From: Spirochaetales bacterium
GTDB taxonomy: Bacteria > Spirochaetota > Spirochaetia > Treponematales > Treponemataceae
Assembly: GCA_029098225.1 (NCBI GenBank)
Contig: JAQXNX010000010.1
Span: forward strand, 62,001 to 126,000
Direction of reading: 5' to 3'
DNA length: 64,000 nt
This document shows, piece by piece, positions 4,674 through 27,233 of the stretch. Under the pieces are notes generated by a model, which was given only the letters and a program-made list of their open reading frames with translations, was not told the DNA's origin and did not search any database. How positions within the stretch are numbered: position 1 is the stretch's first letter; each line of letters starts with the position of its first letter. Both the position numbers and the translations under genes were made by a program.

Positions 4674-4744
4674 AAGGAGGGGAAAGACTTCCCCTCGGTG
4701 GCACTTCGTTGCCACCTACCCTTTCTAGCGGGGGACACCCCCGC
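4674..4744 (+). repeat. G+C-rich triple-hairpin insertion between S and T genes
   Basis: AAGGAGG (4674-4680) follows the S-component stop, but no start codon follows at the normal distance. Instead there are three consecutive hairpins: 4679-4694 (GGGGAA/TTCCCC), 4697-4716 (GGTGGCA/TGCCACC) and 4728-4744 (GCGGGGG/CCCCCGC, three-base loop). Composition is far more G+C-rich than the neighbours. It looks like a palindromic repeat that entered between a ribosome binding site and its gene. Confidence 0.65.
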
Positions 4745-4765
4745 AACGCCCCCGCTTTTACAATT

Positions 4766-5491: not shown

Positions 5492-7024
5492 ATGATTGAA
5501 TTAAAAAATGTAAGTTTTAAATATTTAAGTGCCGAAGGGGCAGCTGGTGGAATTGATGAAAAGATTTCTAACGGAAGTCTTCGAGGCGTGAATCTTTCTG
5601 TTAATGACGGAGAGTTTGTACTTCTGACCGGCGGCTCCGGCTGTGGAAAGACTACAATTTTGCGGCTCATAAACGGCCTTATTCCAAACTTTTTTGAAGG
5701 CAGTCTTGAAGGTTCGGTTACTGTAGACGGCTTTGATGTTAGTCACGCAGAGCTTTATGACACCGCAAAAAGTGTCAGCACGGTATTCCAAAATCCCCGT
5801 TCTCAGTTTTTTAATGTAGACACCACAAGCGAACTGGCCTTTGCCTGCGAAAATCAGGGAATGGCAGAAAGCGAGATTCTCCGCCGCATTGATAATACTG
5901 TTTCAGAGCTGCATCTTGAGCCCCTGATGAACCGCAGTCTTTTTGATTTAAGTGGCGGCCAGAAACAGAAAATTGCCTGTGCCTCTGTCGCAGTTACAGG
6001 AAATAAAATAATTCTTCTTGATGAACCAAGTGCCAATCTTGATTTAAAAACAATAGATGAACTTGCCGGCCTTCTGAAAAAATGGAAGAGCGAGGGCAAG
6101 ACGATAATTGTCGCCGAACACCGCATTTCATACTTGTGGAATCTTGCCGACCGAACGGTAGTTTTGAAAGAAGGTCAGATTGTACGAGAACTATCACGGG
6201 CTCAGATGGATACGATAAGTGAAGAGGAATTACACGCGCTGGGATTAAGAAGCGCCCGTCAAACAGAAGCAACAAACCGTCATCCCGAACAAAAAGACTG
6301 TCACCCTGAACTTGTTTCAGGGTCTCATTCACAAGAGATGCTGAAACAAGTTCAGCATGACAGTGGAGACACAACCTGTTTCCTCACCCTCCAAAACTTT
6401 CGCTACAAATACAAAAACGGCTACCTGGCCCTCAACATCCCTCAAATGCAAATTCCGGTTGGTAAAATAACCGCCATAACCGGCAACAACGGTGACGGAA
6501 AAACTACCCTGCTCAACTGCCTGTGTGGACTCGGAAGGCGCTCAAAAGGAACTCTTCTCTATCAGGGGAAAGCCTACAATCGTCGCCAGCGACAAAAGCT
6601 CATCTTCCTTGTAATGCAGGATGTAAATCATCAGCTCTTTACAGAAAGTGTACTTGACGAAGTTCTCATCAGCCAGGCAGAAGAAAACGAAGAAGAAGCC
6701 CGCCGCATTCTCGCAACTCTCGACCTCGAACAATTTGCAGACCGACATCCGCAATCCCTTTCCGGCGGCCAGAAACAACGCGTGGCGGTTGCCTCTGCCA
6801 TAGCAAGCGGCCGCGACATCATGCTTTTTGATGAACCAACCAGCGGCCTGGACTATACCCATATGCTGCAAATCGGCGAAATCCTGCGTAGCCTCAAAGC
6901 CCAGGGAAAAACGGTAATCGTAGTTACCCACGACCGTGAGCTCATAAAAGAATGCTGCGATTGTGAAATCTGTCTGCACGATTTTAATCAGATAAATCCG
7001 GCAGAAGGAGGAAAAGATGCCTAA
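5492..7024 (+). CDS. Double ECF ATPase (EcfA-EcfA' in one chain)
   Basis: Two complete ABC ATPase domains in 510 residues. Domain 1: Walker A GGSGCGKTT (47-55), Q-loop QNPRSQF, signature LSGGQKQK (153-160), Walker B IILLDEPSANLD, switch His in VAEHR. Domain 2: Walker A GNNGDGKTT (331-339), signature LSGGQKQR (423-430), Walker B IMLFDEPTSGLD, VVTHD. Together they would form the heterodimeric motor of an ECF importer. The ATG directly follows the T-component stop. The linker (about residues 263-291) is encoded by a palindromic repeat (6300-6362), giving the foreign-looking CHPELVSGS and EMLKQVQHD. The linker location means both domains can still fold. Confidence 0.92.
   Translation: MIELKNVSFKYLSAEGAAGGIDEKISNGSLRGVNLSVNDGEFVLLTGGSGCGKTTILRLINGLIPNFFEGSLEGSVTVDGFDVSHAELYDTAKSVSTVFQNPRSQFFNVDTTSELAFACENQGMAESEILRRIDNTVSELHLEPLMNRSLFDLSGGQKQKIACASVAVTGNKIILLDEPSANLDLKTIDELAGLLKKWKSEGKTIIVAEHRISYLWNLADRTVVLKEGQIVRELSRAQMDTISEEELHALGLRSARQTEATNRHPEQKDCHPELVSGSHSQEMLKQVQHDSGDTTCFLTLQNFRYKYKNGYLALNIPQMQIPVGKITAITGNNGDGKTTLLNCLCGLGRRSKGTLLYQGKAYNRRQRQKLIFLVMQDVNHQLFTESVLDEVLISQAEENEEEARRILATLDLEQFADRHPQSLSGGQKQRVAVASAIASGRDIMLFDEPTSGLDYTHMLQIGEILRSLKAQGKTVIVVTHDRELIKECCDCEICLHDFNQINPAEGGKDA
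6300..6362. repeat. Palindromic repeat inserted in frame in an ECF ATPase
   Basis: Two facing hairpins, ACCCTGAA-CTTG-TTCAGGGT type (6302-6322) and ATGCTGAA-ACAAG-TTCAGCAT (6339-6359), bounded by GTC and GAC. The layout is the same as the intergenic element at 9767-9836, but the stem sequences differ while staying complementary. It is 63 bp, a multiple of three, has no stop in this frame, and translates to the linker between two ATPase domains. Confidence 0.8.
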
Positions 7025-7694
7025 GCTACAATTAAATCCCATTGTCCTTATCATTATAAATATTCTCGCTCCTTCAATGTATATCTTTTTGAATGGCAGC
7101 TTCTTAAAAATCTATCTTGTTATTTTTGCAACAGTTCTTCTGCTTGCAATGGGCTGTTATAAAATCTTTTTGATAACTGCCCTTGTGTATGCAGGGATGG
7201 AAGGAATCATAATGCTTAGCAGTATTTTTCATCCAATAGAATCCTTTGCACTTTTTCTTGTTGTACTGCAGCAGTCAGTTCCATGCTTTGGTCTGGTATT
7301 TGCACTGATGAAAAAATATTCATCCGCAGAATTGCTTTCTTCCCTCGAAACAATGCGTATCCCTCGAACTCTTGTTGTAGCAGTCACAATCACTTTGAAA
7401 TATATTCCAACCTTTGCCCGCGAGTTCAAATATATCCGGGAGTCAATGAGACTGCGCGGCATTCCTTTTACTCTGCGTCGGCCTGTAAAAAGCTTTCAAT
7501 ATTTTGTAGTTCCCCAGCTTTTCCGCTGTGCCGCTCTTTCAGAAGAGGTTACGGCTGCAGGCCTCGTTAAAGGAATTGATGCGCCTATAAAACGCACTTC
7601 ATATTTTGAACAGAAATTCAGGTTTACTGATGCTTTGATTCTTGTCCTCTTTATTGCAGGACTCATCGGAGGTTTTGTATGGTACAAAAAATAA
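7017..7694 (+). CDS. ECF transporter T component (second)
   Basis: A 225-residue membrane protein of the CbiQ/EcfT family, more divergent than the one at 4766 because it lacks the LDPRTK opening. The C-terminal coupling segments are clear: FAREFKYIRESMRLRGIP and SEEVTAAGLVKGIDAP. It overlaps the end of the double ATPase gene by eight bases and has GAAGGAGG just ahead of its ATG, so translation is coupled. It should pair with the next double ATPase (7679-9139) and the S component at 9132. The operon would thus hold two full sets of ECF parts. Confidence 0.85.
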   Translation: MPKLQLNPIVLIIINILAPSMYIFLNGSFLKIYLVIFATVLLLAMGCYKIFLITALVYAGMEGIIMLSSIFHPIESFALFLVVLQQSVPCFGLVFALMKKYSSAELLSSLETMRIPRTLVVAVTITLKYIPTFAREFKYIRESMRLRGIPFTLRRPVKSFQYFVVPQLFRCAALSEEVTAAGLVKGIDAPIKRTSYFEQKFRFTDALILVLFIAGLIGGFVWYKK

Positions 7695-9139
7695 TGAAAG
7701 CCGACAAGCTTTCTTTTGAATATAAAGATTCCAGCGAAGGAATTCATGATATCAATTTTGAAATCAACAAAGGCGAAGTAATTCTGCTTACCGGAAACAG
7801 CGGCTGCGGAAAATCAACTCTGCTTAAATGTTTAAACGGACTGATTCCCGCAATTACTGAAGGCAACTTGTCCGGCGAGCTTTTTATAAATGATAAAAAC
7901 TACAGTACACTAAAAATGCACGAGCTTAACCGCGAAATTGGTTCTGTATTTCAGAATCCCCGCTCGCAGTTTTTCACAGACAATACTACAAGCGAGCTTG
8001 TTTTCCCTATGGAAAATTACGGTTATTCAAAAGAGCAGATGCAGCAAAAGCTCAGCGACCTTGTAAAAACCTTTGGTCTTGAAAAGCTGATGGACAAAAA
8101 CATCTTCCTGCTTTCAAGCGGCGAACGCCAGATGGTAGCCCTGGCCTCTGCCCTCACGATGGATCAAGAGGTCGTTCTTTTTGATGAGCCTTCTGCAAAT
8201 CTTGATTATGGAAATGCAATGAAGCTTGGACAGATTATCAGCTGGCTGAAAGATCGTGGAATTTCTGTAATAATTGCAGACCACCGTTTTTACTATCTGA
8301 ACGGAATTATTGACCGTGTTTTCTTTATGGATAAAGGAAAGCTTAATATTTACGACAGCGAAGAGGCCTTCAAAAAAAGCGGTTATGATACCCGCAGCTT
8401 TAATATTTTTTCACTGGATGTTCCTTTTGTTGAAAAACTCCCTGATTCAGAAAAATCAGTTTGCGCAAGCATAGAAAATGCAGAGTGGAAAAATATTTTG
8501 AAGGATGTAAACCTTCAACTAAAAAAAGGCGAAGTTACTGTTCTTGTGGGAAACAACGGAGCCGGTAAGACAACACTTGCAAAGCTTTTGTGTAAAAGCA
8601 TTAAGCCTGACAGCGGAAGTGTAAAAACAGACGGACTTCCATTCTTCATTATGCAGGATCCGGATTATCAGCTATTTGGCACTTCCGCAGAAAACGAACT
8701 ATCGTTAGTTAGGAAGGATCCTGTAAAAATCAATGAAACTCTTGAATATCTTGGGCTTGCTGAATACAAAGACGCTCATCCATTCGAATTAAGTGGCGGA
8801 CAAAAACAGCGTCTTCAGATTGGTATGGCCATGCTTTGCAACCGCGAGCTGATTGTTTTCGATGAGCCTACCAGCGGTCTTGATGTTGCTTCCATGCAGA
8901 AGGTTTCAAAAGAAGTTATAAGTCTTCGTCAAAATGCTGGAGTTCTTGTAATTTCTCATGACTATGAATTTATCCGCCATGTTGCAGACAGAATTGTCTT
9001 TCTGAATGACGGAAAAATTGAAAAGGATTTTATTTTATCTTCCCAGACTCTCGGGGAGCTGAATGAAATCTTCTTAAAAATGCAAAAAGAATCAGCGGGT
9101 GCTGATCAAATATTTAAAAAGGAGCGTAACTATGCGTAA
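7679..9139 (+). CDS. Double ECF ATPase (second)
   Basis: A 486-residue chain with two ABC ATPase domains. Domain 1 has Walker A GNSGCGKST, QNPRSQF, a signature LSSGERQM in place of the usual LSGGQ, Walker B VVLFDEPSANLD, and IADHR. Domain 2 has GNNGAGKTT, MQDPDYQLF, LSGGQKQR, IVFDEPTSGLD and ISHD. The altered signature of domain 1 (Gly to Ser at the third position) may lower activity at one of the composite ATP sites. The start at 7679 is favoured by GGAGG six bases before it; it overlaps the T gene by 16 bases. It lacks the repeat-derived linker of the paralogue at 5492. Confidence 0.92.
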   Translation: MVQKIMKADKLSFEYKDSSEGIHDINFEINKGEVILLTGNSGCGKSTLLKCLNGLIPAITEGNLSGELFINDKNYSTLKMHELNREIGSVFQNPRSQFFTDNTTSELVFPMENYGYSKEQMQQKLSDLVKTFGLEKLMDKNIFLLSSGERQMVALASALTMDQEVVLFDEPSANLDYGNAMKLGQIISWLKDRGISVIIADHRFYYLNGIIDRVFFMDKGKLNIYDSEEAFKKSGYDTRSFNIFSLDVPFVEKLPDSEKSVCASIENAEWKNILKDVNLQLKKGEVTVLVGNNGAGKTTLAKLLCKSIKPDSGSVKTDGLPFFIMQDPDYQLFGTSAENELSLVRKDPVKINETLEYLGLAEYKDAHPFELSGGQKQRLQIGMAMLCNRELIVFDEPTSGLDVASMQKVSKEVISLRQNAGVLVISHDYEFIRHVADRIVFLNDGKIEKDFILSSQTLGELNEIFLKMQKESAGADQIFKKERNYA

Positions 9140-9737: not shown

Positions 9738-9766
9738 TATACCTCCTTAGGGACTGTCAATTTTAC

Positions 9767-9836
9767 GTCATGCTGAACTTGTTTCAGCATCTCATGTATG
9801 TCTGATACAGAGATTCCGAAACAAGTTCGGAATGAC
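9767..9836. repeat. Intergenic palindromic repeat, two facing hairpins
   Basis: GTC, then hairpin ATGCTGAA-CTTGT-TTCAGCAT (9770-9790), CTC, a spacer, GAG, then hairpin ATTCCGAA-ACAAG-TTCGGAAT (about 9812-9832), GAC. It belongs to the same family as the copy embedded in the ATPase gene at 6300-6362. It lies between the ECF genes and the exporter-fold genes in the same operon direction and may act as a weak attenuator or RNA-stability element. Confidence 0.75.
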
Positions 9837-9892
9837 ATTGGCAGCCCCTTTTTGAGGAATACATTGAAACACTGTTTTAATAAGGAGTTACT

Positions 9893-13408: not shown

Positions 13409-13435
13409 CGGTGGTTGAGCTTGTCGAAACCACCG
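13409..13435. repeat. Hairpin with GAGCTTGTCGA core
   Basis: CGGTGGTT-GAGCTTGTCGA-AACCACCG. The same 11-base core with a different but again self-complementary stem occurs at 27209-27233. It sits between the half-transporter stop and the TetR start. A TTG-initiated extension of the TetR frame runs through it and is probably not used. Confidence 0.75.
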
Positions 13436-14089: not shown

Positions 14090-15734
14090 TTCCATTCTCT
14101 ACTTTGTAAACTGCATCGGCATTTTTGATTGTATTCAATCTGTGGGCAATTACAAGCAGCGTTTTTCCTGCACAAAGCTCATCTATCGCTTCCTGAATAT
14201 AAGACTCATTATCGGCATCAACGCTGGCTGTTGCTTCATCAAGAATTATAATCGGAGAATCTTTCAAAATACATCTGGCAATAGAAATACGTTGAGCCTC
14301 ACCGCCAGAGAGACTTGCTCCACCCTCACCTATTACAGTATCAATTCCAAAGGGCAGTTTTTCAATGAAGTCCATACAGCGGGCTTTTTTAAGGCACTCC
14401 AAAACTTCTTCCCTGGTGGCAGACGGCTTTCCCATTCTCACATTGTTATAAATTGTATCTTTAAACAAATAGACTCTCTGAAATACAACAGAGATTTTAT
14501 CCATCAGATTATTCAAAGGTACATTTCGAATATCACAACTGCGTATTAAAATGCTGCCTTCTTTAATATCCCAGAATCTTGTAAGAAGATTTGCAATTGT
14601 ACTCTTTCCACCTCCAGACGGACCAATTAAAGCAGCCATTGTTTTCTGAGGAATCTTGAACGAAACGTTTTTAAGAACAGCTTCTTCTTCATATGAAAAA
14701 GTAACATTTCTATATTCAATTTCCGGCACTCCCTCTGGACACTTTTCAGGAATCTTTTCTGTATCAACTTCATCCAGTAATTTCAGATTAAATAATTCTT
14801 CCATCCTGTTCAAACTGCTGTTCATAACGGCAATTCTTGTAACCTGAAGATAAAGATTTCTTACAGGCCGGAAAACTCCAAATGAAAAAACACTGATTCC
14901 AAGAGTCTTAAATAAATCAATTTCTCCGCCTTTATAGAGGAAAAGGCCAAGCACCACAAGAGCTGCAATTCCTATAATATTTATTGATTCTATAATTCTC
15001 AAACCTGGAGTTACTTTTTTTTCAAGATCAATACATTTATCTTTTGTATTAATAAATGCTTTATCCAACTGATTTGATTCTGAATCAAGCATATTATAAG
15101 ATTTTATGACACTCATTCCTTCTATATATTCCAGCACATGTTCAGAAAGTTCTTCATTTACCTGCTGCATATTGTCAGCTTCTTTCTGCTCGTTTTTCAT
15201 ACAGATATTTCCGGCAACAATAATTAAAAGCGTTACAAGTAAAGTCAGAACGCCAAGATAAGGATGAAGTAAAAACATAAAAACAAGAGTCAAAGCCTGA
15301 GAGCCAGCATCTGCTGCAAAATCTGCAATCATATTCATACAGTTGCTTTCCACATATTGCATATCATTTGAAAGAACTGTACTGATTTTTCCAATATTTC
15401 CGTCAGAAAAAAATCCCATAGGAAGCTTTTTGAGTCTGTCGCCGAGCTTTATTCGAAGAGAGGCAAAAACTTCATAACCCGCTATAGACTGGAATCTGTC
15501 TGCAAGGTATCTGAATAAAACCTGCCCCAGCAGACAAAGAATTAAGATTCCTCCAATCATCCAGACCTTTCTATAATTCATTGTTTTCTGGAACAATTCT
15601 TTGATTACAAAAAGGCTCATCATATATGGAAAATAAGTAAAGAAGGAATTCAAAAATGAAAAGAGATAGGCAATTCTGATTTTACCTTTGTACTTGTCTG
15701 CAAGCTTAATAATTCTGCGAATCTGTTTAAGCAT
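14073..15734 (-). CDS. ABC exporter-fold half-transporter
   Basis: 553 residues: a six-helix membrane domain and an ATPase with Walker A GPSGGGKST, signature LSGGEAQR, Walker B ILDEATASVDADNE and IAHRLN. It is the last gene of the minus-strand operon, overlaps the end of the fused ECF/exporter gene by eight bases, and must pair with the exporter half in that fusion. It resembles the IrtB/YbtQ-type partner and the product of 11682-13400. The C-terminus is short, ending soon after the ATPase core (VENGIISSS). Confidence 0.88.
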   Translation of the reverse strand: MLKQIRRIIKLADKYKGKIRIAYLFSFLNSFFTYFPYMMSLFVIKELFQKTMNYRKVWMIGGILILCLLGQVLFRYLADRFQSIAGYEVFASLRIKLGDRLKKLPMGFFSDGNIGKISTVLSNDMQYVESNCMNMIADFAADAGSQALTLVFMFLLHPYLGVLTLLVTLLIIVAGNICMKNEQKEADNMQQVNEELSEHVLEYIEGMSVIKSYNMLDSESNQLDKAFINTKDKCIDLEKKVTPGLRIIESINIIGIAALVVLGLFLYKGGEIDLFKTLGISVFSFGVFRPVRNLYLQVTRIAVMNSSLNRMEELFNLKLLDEVDTEKIPEKCPEGVPEIEYRNVTFSYEEEAVLKNVSFKIPQKTMAALIGPSGGGKSTIANLLTRFWDIKEGSILIRSCDIRNVPLNNLMDKISVVFQRVYLFKDTIYNNVRMGKPSATREEVLECLKKARCMDFIEKLPFGIDTVIGEGGASLSGGEAQRISIARCILKDSPIIILDEATASVDADNESYIQEAIDELCAGKTLLVIAHRLNTIKNADAVYKVENGIISSS

Positions 15735-18700
15735 TTTTTCCTCCCTTTTTTGATTTTGCTCTGTTGTCTATTTCCCAATTATCTGCATTAACAGAAAGCT
15801 TATAGAGTTTCTTAAAATACTCACTATTTTTCATAATTTGCTTTGCAGAGCCTTCTTCAACGACGCGACCATCTTTCAGCAGAACAATTCTGTCCACATT
15901 TTTCAAAGCACTTAATTTATGGGCAATGACAATTACTGTTTTATTTTCGATGATTTTTTCGATTGCCTGATTTATCTTTTCTTCATTTTCAAGATCGATA
16001 GAAGAAGTCGCTTCATCTAAAATGATAATTGGCGCATTCTTCAAAATTGCCCGAGCAAGTGCAATTCTTTGTCTCTCTCCACCTGAAAGTCTTTTTCCGG
16101 CATCACCAGCTTTTGCCATATAACCACCGGGAAGCTTCTGTATAAACTCATTGCAGGAAGCAATGGCCGCTGCCTCTTTTACCTCATCATCACTTGCAGA
16201 AGGTTTTCCTATTCTGATATTTTCCATAATGCTTCTGTTGAAAAGGAAAACTTCCTGAGAGACAAAAGAGATTTCGCAGTTCAGGGCATTTAAACTAAGG
16301 TCAGTAATATTTTTTCTTCCCACAGTAATAAGACCGCCATCCGCATCATATTGATGGGCAATAAGTCGGGCAATTGTTGATTTGCCGCTTCCAGATTCCC
16401 CTACAATGGCCGTCATCTCACCGCCCTTTGCAGTAAAACTTACATCTTTTAATACTTCTTTATCTTTATATGAAAAATGAACATTTTTGAAAGTGATTTC
16501 TGTACTATCAGATTTCGCACCTTCAGCCACTTTTGAAAAATCATCTGTACCTTCCTTCAATGGAGTTCTGTCCAAAACTCTTTCAAGAGCTTGAATCTTA
16601 TAATTCACCTGTGTCATGGAAGCAAGAAAAGAAAGAGCCCTTAATAGATTTCCTCCGGTTGCAAGTGAAAGACATATAATCAAAATTAATTCAGCAAGTG
16701 TAGCCTGCCCGCTCATAACAGCAAGAGAGCCAAGAGGCAGGGTAAATAAAAGCATATTCGGAAGCAGGCTTGTATAAAGAGCAATCCAAGGCCAGCAGAC
16801 TTTATACCAGATAAGGCTCAGCTTTTTATAATTCAAAACGCCGGCTTCATAGTTTTTATAGGATTCATCCTGATAATTAAATACCTTTACAACTTCCATT
16901 CCATTTATGAATTCGATAATCGAATTGTTCATTCTTTTGGCAGCAGCAAAATAACCGCCCATTCTCTCAGTTCCATCTTTATACATTTTTGTCATGCATT
17001 TTAAGCCGATTGGAATTACGATTATTGAAGTGAGGGCTAAAAGCCAGTTTATCTGAAACATAAACACAATTACGATTACCGAAACAAGAAGATTCGAAAG
17101 TCCTTCAGGAATAGCATGAGCAAGAATGATTTCTATACTTTCAATATCATCTGTAAATATTTTTTTTAAAGCTCCGGTTCCAATCTGTCTGATTGTTCCT
17201 AACGACTGTTTGTTTAGTTTTTCCTTCAACTGGATTCTGATTTCTTTTAAGGTGTTAAAGGCTGCTATATGAGAAAACGAAAGCCCCTGAGTATACAGAA
17301 AAACATTAAGAAGACCGCCTCCAAGAATTCCACCCAAAAGGATTGCAAGATTTTTCAAACTGAACGAAAGTCCATTAAGCAGACCGTCAGTTATTTTGTA
17401 AATTGAAAGATAAGGAAGTATGCTTGCCAGAACACCAAATACCATACAAAGAATTGAGGCATAAAAATATTTTTTATATTTGCCCATGCGGTTTATCAGG
17501 CGAACAATTGAAGAAGAATTGTCTCGTTTTTGTGTAAAGGCCTGGTCACTCTCTGTTGTAAAAAAATACTTTACTTTTTCAATTCCTTCTTTATCCAGCG
17601 GATAAGCAGAAACAAGACGGCCTCGTTCAAGATGTACAACATAGTCGCAGCAGTTTAAGATAAGCTCCAAATCATGGGTTATAATTACAGAAGCTTCAAC
17701 TTGTGAATCTGTTTCTTTTACTAATTTGGAAAATCTTTGCATTCCTTCATAGTCGAGTCCGCTTGTAGGTTCATCATAATAAATGACTTTTTTGCCGGAA
17801 CAGAGAGCCGAAGCAATTGCAACTCTTTGCTTCTGACCTCCGGAAAGTGAAGAGGGGTGTCTGTCTTTAAAACCTTCTATACCAAGTTTTTTGAGAACTT
17901 CACAGGCCTCTTCATCGCTTACCTTACTGTTCAGTTTTAATTCTTCGAGAACCGAATCACGGAAAAGCTGATGATTTACATCCTGCATTACCATAAAACT
18001 TTTTTCAGCCCGCTGTTTATCACTCAAAATCTCATTATCCAGGGCAATTGTTCCATTTGATTTTAGGGTGCCGCACAAAGCTTCAGCCAGAGTACTTTTT
18101 CCTGTTCCGTTATCACCTATAAAAGCAATCACACTTTTTTTAGGAAGCTTTAAATCATCAATATCAAGAATTGTTGAGGTTCCTCTCTGGCAGGATAAAT
18201 CGCTTATTGAAATTGCACTTTCAAAATGGCTGGCAGAAATTGGTTCGGCAGTAATTGAATTAAGATTTGTCGTTCTAAGTCCTAGCTTATGTAATTCTTC
18301 TTCGCTAAGCTCTTTCATTTCTTCATTCGTAAATTCTCTTTCAATTTTTCCATCATTTAAATAAATAAAACGGTCTGCAAGTTCCATCAAAAAGTAAAGG
18401 CGATGTTCAGAAACAATAATTGTTTTTCCTTCCTGCTTTAATTTTGTAAGAATTTGCTGAAGGCGATTTATTGCTTTTTTATCAAGATTTGAAGTAGGTT
18501 CGTCCATTACAAAAATGTCAGGCCTCGCTGTATAAACTGAGCCGCAGGCAATCTGCTGTTTTTCGCCACCGGAAAGTTCAAAAAGGCTTCTGCCAAGCAG
18601 CGGGCGAATTTGAAAATCATTCACTGTACCTTCCAGCTGTGCCTTCATTTTTTCTTTACTCATGTTTTGATTTTCACAGCCAAAAACAAGCTCACTTGTC

Positions 18701-19005
18701 GTATCAATATGAAAAAACTGGCTTTTAGGATTCTGAAAAACAGAACCAACAAGTGTAGAGATTTTAGAAATTGGCTCTCTTGGAACATCTATATCATTAA
18801 TAAAAACATGACCTTCCATATCACCTTCATAAAAGTGAGGTGCAAGTCCATTTATGATTCTTGTGAAAGTTGTTTTACCGCAGCCACTTTTTCCACAAAG
18901 AACAACAAACTCTCCATCATTAATTGTAAGATTAATATGTTCAAGACCGTTTTTCTGTCTGGCTTTTCCCGAATAAGAAAAAGAGACGTCTTCAATTTTT
19001 ATCAT
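15727..19005 (-). CDS. Fusion: double ECF ATPase plus ABC exporter-fold half-transporter
   Basis: One uninterrupted 1092-codon frame with three ABC ATPase domains. NBD1: GKSGCGKTT (38-46), LSGGEKQQ (144-151), VMDEPTSNLD, SEHR. NBD2: GDNGTGKST (297-305), LSGGQKQR (387-394), YYDEPTSGLD, THD. A linker of about 480-505 leads to a membrane domain (about 508-790) containing FSHIAAFNT. NBD3 then has GESGSGKST (869-877), LSGGERQR (973-980), ILDEATSSIDLENE. In the plus-strand operon the same functions are separate genes. No internal start with a ribosome binding site is visible at the junction (near MGKYKKYF). The fusion physically joins an ECF motor to an exporter-fold half, so both must act at one membrane site. 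Confidence 0.92.
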   Translation of the reverse strand: MIKIEDVSFSYSGKARQKNGLEHINLTINDGEFVVLCGKSGCGKTTFTRIINGLAPHFYEGDMEGHVFINDIDVPREPISKISTLVGSVFQNPKSQFFHIDTTSELVFGCENQNMSKEKMKAQLEGTVNDFQIRPLLGRSLFELSGGEKQQIACGSVYTARPDIFVMDEPTSNLDKKAINRLQQILTKLKQEGKTIIVSEHRLYFLMELADRFIYLNDGKIEREFTNEEMKELSEEELHKLGLRTTNLNSITAEPISASHFESAISISDLSCQRGTSTILDIDDLKLPKKSVIAFIGDNGTGKSTLAEALCGTLKSNGTIALDNEILSDKQRAEKSFMVMQDVNHQLFRDSVLEELKLNSKVSDEEACEVLKKLGIEGFKDRHPSSLSGGQKQRVAIASALCSGKKVIYYDEPTSGLDYEGMQRFSKLVKETDSQVEASVIITHDLELILNCCDYVVHLERGRLVSAYPLDKEGIEKVKYFFTTESDQAFTQKRDNSSSIVRLINRMGKYKKYFYASILCMVFGVLASILPYLSIYKITDGLLNGLSFSLKNLAILLGGILGGGLLNVFLYTQGLSFSHIAAFNTLKEIRIQLKEKLNKQSLGTIRQIGTGALKKIFTDDIESIEIILAHAIPEGLSNLLVSVIVIVFMFQINWLLALTSIIVIPIGLKCMTKMYKDGTERMGGYFAAAKRMNNSIIEFINGMEVVKVFNYQDESYKNYEAGVLNYKKLSLIWYKVCWPWIALYTSLLPNMLLFTLPLGSLAVMSGQATLAELILIICLSLATGGNLLRALSFLASMTQVNYKIQALERVLDRTPLKEGTDDFSKVAEGAKSDSTEITFKNVHFSYKDKEVLKDVSFTAKGGEMTAIVGESGSGKSTIARLIAHQYDADGGLITVGRKNITDLSLNALNCEISFVSQEVFLFNRSIMENIRIGKPSASDDEVKEAAAIASCNEFIQKLPGGYMAKAGDAGKRLSGGERQRIALARAILKNAPIIILDEATSSIDLENEEKINQAIEKIIENKTVIVIAHKLSALKNVDRIVLLKDGRVVEEGSAKQIMKNSEYFKKLYKLSVNADNWEIDNRAKSKKGGKNA

Positions 19006-27208: not shown

Positions 27209-27233
27209 GGTCATTTCGACAAGCTCAATGACC
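27209..27233. repeat. Hairpin repeat forming the 3' end of the P-ATPase gene
   Basis: GGTCATT-TCGACAAGCTC-AATGACC. On the minus strand the core reads GAGCTTGTCGA as at 13409-13435, with different arms. The last codons of the ATPase gene (RSLSLSK) and its TGA lie inside the element. Confidence 0.8.

Follow-up and report, generated by a model that had tools for sequence, protein, structure and literature searches.

In-frame palindromic repeats of unrelated families at a probably permissive interdomain linker of a putative ECF-type ATPase in rumen Treponema

A mobile-looking palindromic repeat of 62 bp lies in frame within the gene for a double ABC ATPase, at the linker between its two ABC domains. 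This CGTC-type palindrome was very probably inserted at a flexible linker and tolerated there, and the linker is best seen as a permissive site of high turnover. A CGTC-type head-to-head dimer would have entered the fused ATPase gene between the two domains, its one stop-free frame coinciding with the gene frame, so that 21 residues would be translated in a disordered loop and tolerated. In sister species the same linker has repeatedly acquired, exchanged, or lost palindromes, which belong to three or more unrelated families, and because of this repeated change it may be regarded as a docking site rather than a single captured functional part. We infer insertion as an event, the near-neutrality of the element, and a machinery that copies it.

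The window analyzed is a 64,000-nucleotide stretch of one contig of a Spirochaetales bacterium, whose genome comprises 3.05 Mb in 33 contigs. Features are listed in Table 1. The open reading frame (ORF) that hosts the repeat was assigned to an ECF-type transporter as its fused ATPase, based on its two ABC ATPase domains and on neighboring membrane-protein genes of the CbiQ/T-component and Trep_Strep/S-component types (Pfam). Relatives carrying an orthologue are rumen Treponema, such as T. bryantii NK4A124, and metagenome-assembled genomes (MAGs), including UBA1233, UBA4267, and RUG13457.

Table 1. Coordinates of the host gene, its paralogues, and the repeats in the window
Feature	Position	Strand	Basis or details
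Double ABC ATPase, putatively ECF type, fused, 510 aa; host of the repeat	5492..7024	+	ORF list; Pfam ABC_tran twice
In-frame palindrome: two CGTC-type half-elements joined head to head	6300..6361	+	Residues 270-290; first codon starts at 6299
Left half	6300..6326	+	Tag TGTC (from 6299), 8-bp stem ACCCTGAA/TTCAGGGT, loop CTTGT, tail CTC; read CHPELVSGS
Right half, inverted	6335..6361	-	Stem ATGCTGAA/TTCAGCAT, loop ACAAG (+ strand spelling); read EMLKQVQHD on + strand
Shortened third half-element CGTCATCCCGAAC, just upstream of the dimer	6278..6290	+	In frame within NRHPEQ
Paralogous double ATPase without the repeat	7679..9139	+	No core match in window scan
Intergenic copy of the same family, 3' of the second Trep_Strep gene, other spacer	9766..9837	+	Arm match, fold, core scan
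Double ATPase fused to ABC exporter (L020), linker without the repeat	15727..19005	-	Linker comparison
Repeat D copy at the beginning of the T-component ORF; encodes SGGHPRNAPA	4731..4752	+	GGGGACACCCCCGCAACGCCCC

The element (GTCACCCTGAACTTGTTTCAGGGTCTC-ATTCACAA-GAGATGCTGAAACAAGTTCAGCATGAC) consists of two perfect 8-bp hairpins face to face, jointly forming one longer palindrome that reaches out to positions 6297 to 6364. Its arms were 87% complementary, and none of 200 shuffles was equally stable (fold z score, -8.25). A sequence-only reading had described a two-hairpin repeat at 6300 that adds residues without a stop, shares its family with an intergenic copy, and is missing from the paralogue at 7679 and the fusion at 15727; all of this was borne out. 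One frame is open per strand, and the sole stop-free frame of the plus strand is the one used by the gene, giving the 21-aa peptide CHPELVSGS-HSQ-EMLKQVQHD. The right arm matched the copy at 9767 by 97%, and that copy had a fold z score of -6.64 (positions 9765 to 9838). The core CTGAACTTGTTTCAG had three exact matches in the window, two of them inside the element, and a half-core with two mismatches was found at 9816. A 102-aa short ORF over the intergenic copy was treated as spurious, like other short ORFs across such copies. The shortened half-element upstream of the dimer was not present in orthologues L010 and L026.

The AlphaFold2 model (44 sequences; mean pLDDT, 86; pTM, 0.83) gave pLDDT values above 85 for most of both ABC domains and below 50 for residues 261 to 277 and 286 to 293, with a short helix at residues 280 to 286. 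The repeat-encoded residues are thus predicted to sit in a disordered, flexible interdomain linker.

Pattern searches placed this family (family A) at about a dozen places in the source genome, and a reversed-pattern control yielded 0 matches at one mismatch. Anatomy was compared in 123 half-elements taken from loci in the source genome and in relatives, mainly G099 and G127. The tag (TGTC in 48, CGTC in 44), the 8-bp stem, and the loop CTTGT (106 of 123) were constant features; stem pair 1 was AT in 118 halves and pair 2 was TA in 101, the window's left half having C-G at the latter. Pairs 2 (TA/CG), 3 (GC/CG/TA), and 5 (TA/CG) changed on both sides together. Tags pointed outward in the dimers at 6300 to 6361 and 9766 and in most sampled G127 dimers. 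CGTC repetitive extragenic palindromes (REPs) are defined by a terminal CGTC (or TGTC/CCTC) tag, an 8- to 9-bp stem whose first two pairs are A-T, a 4- to 5-nt loop, an unpaired tail that is mostly CCA, and mostly head-to-head dimers (heterodimers) (PMC3733652). By tag, covarying stem, 5-nt loop, and dimer orientation, the element at 6300 to 6361 is classed from its sequence as a CGTC-type REP with a different tail, the unpaired tail of the halves being CTA, CTT, or CTC, and CCA in just 2 of 123. An Rfam scan of the element region returned no match. The RAYT-type transposase domain Y1_Tnp was absent from 11 of 16 genomes tested, including the source genome and the copy-rich G127 and G099; RAYT was rejected as the mover of the family, since it is absent from the source genome and its presence in the genomes tested does not track copy number.

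Orthologues of the host gene were found in about 30 of 200 surveyed genomes of the genus, mostly MAGs. Between the conserved GLR(S/T) motif and the NFRYKY strand, the linker ranged from 23 to 90 residues. It carried family A in the source genome (G000) and in G003, G191, G188, G099, and G219, with a half-element in G154; family B (GGGTCAAGCCC...GGGCTTGACCCGGG) in G009, G217, G005, and G213; and family C (GGTGGTTGAG...TTTCGACAGGCTCAACCACC) in G115, G171, and G207, decayed in G025 and as a half in G096. All of these elements were in frame, and most genomes with a family B or C linker contain that family in multiple copies. The remaining linkers, about half, held no recognizable element. A mechanical scan found core matches in 14 of 29 orthologue linkers versus 0.03 expected from shuffles and none in the 39 kb of domain sequence making up the rest of the same ORFs. 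No element was present in the linkers of 12 other double-ATPase loci, mostly paralogues, and linkers of Lachnospiraceae and other outgroups were short and free of repeat-like peptides.

Palindromes were also found compounded with one another. The 89-residue linker of the G005 orthologue (L015) contains a tandem half-element array (SPSVSSAD-type repeats) between two family B halves, an apparent repeat expansion inside the protein. In G009, two contigs (C35 and C42) have cores of families A and B in alternation at spacings of ~35 to 40 bp (A-B-A, B-A-B), so that a palindrome of one family nests in or abuts one of another. In the window, family C cores occur at 13415 to 13429 and 27214 to 27228; the former falls on the called TTG start of a TetR-like ORF, the true start of which is therefore probably downstream.

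Most sampled family A copies were intergenic. In-frame copies in the source genome, counted from pattern matches, also included halves in asparagine synthetase B (AsnB) and an alpha/beta hydrolase, at places where the solved homologues (1CT9 and PA2218) have gaps. In G127, which has an ATPase linker matching the one in T. bryantii NK4A124, family A halves are in frame in genes for an RlmKL-type methyltransferase, a radical-SAM protein, and a WYL regulator. Across 24 AsnB orthologues, two loops were hit repeatedly by families A and C and repeat D; the loops had 3 and 4 core matches to families A to C, against 0 in the remainder of the ORFs, and the second loop is a plain 17 residues in most other species. 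The AsnB interdomain linker contains a further in-frame copy of the repeat D sequence (GGGGACACCCCCGCAACGCCCC, as in the T-component ORF) in both G000 and G213. The ATPase linker and the two AsnB loops may be true hotspots, a proposal we put forward tentatively, at which unrelated families insert and replace one another in frame, either because resident palindromes are preferred as targets or by way of short-tract recombination; linker evolution driven by repeats would then be fast.

The number of origins was examined on a tree from codons with the linker masked; resolution of this gene tree is partial, and recombination may have blurred it. A single clade was rejected for each family (p-AU, 1.6e-5 for A, 1.1e-4 for B, and 2e-68 for C). 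Linker state required at least 11 changes on the tree; occupied versus empty required only 4. Junctions and tree together suggest at least five or six separate origins at the linker, possibly about ten. No clean pair of filled and empty sites displayed a target duplication. A rough Poisson estimate of 0.004 to 1.1 occupancies expected in 28 genomes is a guide only, because its inputs (4 to 20 internal copies per genome; 2 to 100% of coding sequence permissive) were assumed.

Rather than many fresh insertions, recurrent occupancy might mainly reflect a few old ones, handed down or moved by short-tract recombination and accompanied by nested replacement. This route, which is compatible with tolerated insertion at a permissive linker, is a real possibility, if somewhat short of an even one. 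The four occupancy changes agree with it, as do the junctions TNRWLSS, common to G115, G171, and G025, and TNVGNKDLRVKPEDD, common to G009 and G213, which indicate some sharing by descent. So does AsnB of G191 (L317) and G127 (L319), in which an identical element lies inside a tract of ~110 nt that is nearly identical (including 94 nt with no difference) and runs some 45 nt into the flanks of genes otherwise 17% divergent; the tract looks like a recent movement between species by short-tract transfer. The rejection of whole families as clades and the reading frame of family C, which in the G207 linker differs from that of G115-type linkers, argue against this route.

A role at the RNA level, in which mRNA hairpins between the domain-coding parts pause translation or set cleavage or stability and the peptide is a by-product, was judged unlikely. 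Family stems covary, the element folds strongly, and strong folding is common to unrelated families (e.g., L009 and L011); however, about half of the orthologues lack an element and fold weakly at the same place, most copies lie between genes, and the covariation belongs to the element as such rather than to the ATPase site.

The sequence-only reading had also called the repeat domesticated as a linker. A repeat peptide captured once and since maintained by selection, either on linker length or for an interaction, is very unlikely, even though the element of G000 differs from that of G003 and G191 at 1 of 62 sites, compared with 16% in the flanks and gene (dS, ~0.95), which makes it more conserved between these genomes than every other window of the gene. 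Taken alone, this near-identity suggests constraint; as proof it was set aside, because AsnB shows a like pattern in which the flanks are included, which points to recent transfer. The same dimer and spacer occurred nowhere else within three mismatches in 19 genomes, save two cousins with spacer CATGCAGAAGAG. Given the AsnB tract and this distribution, recent spread of the element, rather than constraint at the ATPase site, appears to be the simpler reading. The range of linker lengths, content unrelated between species, sister genomes without the element, and rejection of families A, B, and C as single clades also weigh against domestication. Repeat-free orthologues lacked the repeat-encoded residues (e.g., the T. 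bryantii linker, SARHTQTKKRFSIQNDNNSLTLK), so that the check proposed with that reading does not refute the in-frame insertion; sister-species linkers are empty or filled by unrelated palindromes, so that neither sequence nor length is conserved, and the term domesticated was dropped. A chance palindrome in the gene was effectively refuted by the multicopy family, the reversed-pattern controls near 0, and the fold of the element.

With tolerated insertion at a permissive linker, the range of in-frame palindromic repeats, known best from Rickettsia, widens to rumen Treponema; the many sister genomes allow gain, loss, and replacement of repeat-encoded peptide to be traced at single sites. It now becomes testable, in species that can be cultured such as T. 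bryantii, whether insertions of this kind are tolerated junk or serve protein evolution as raw material, and the linker offers a good case of repeats repeatedly supplying new peptide to permissive protein loops. No papers were found on REPs specifically of Treponema.

Among the closest known systems are the CGTC REPs, which share with this family the TGTC/CGTC tag, a stem starting A-T then T-A, the loop length, and head-to-head heterodimers; they list Spirochaetes among their hosts (Di Nocera et al. 2013, PMC3733652), have no dedicated transposase, and place some copies within ORFs (PMC3733652). The tail differs, as does the recurrence of unrelated families at one linker across a genus, for which recB of two Xanthomonas species, with different REPs at about the same site, is a similar case (PMC3733652). 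REPIN/RAYT systems (GTAG REPs) likewise have two inverted hairpins resembling one unit; unlike these, the Treponema element has no GTAG tag, and neither the source genome nor most copy-rich relatives encode a Y1 transposase. The parallel with Rickettsia palindromic elements (RPEs) drawn from the sequence holds by description: in both, conserved proteins have gained a translated, in-frame palindrome that homologues lack (PMC10969869), and RPE-4 and RPE-6 have been assigned to the CGTC superfamily (PMC3733652). The element is shorter, 62 bp versus about 150 bp for RPEs in the review (PMC10969869), and its host is a rumen spirochete rather than an intracellular Rickettsia. In-frame palindromic repeats are already known; what is new is the recurrence of unrelated families at the same site, with one reported precedent in Xanthomonas recB.
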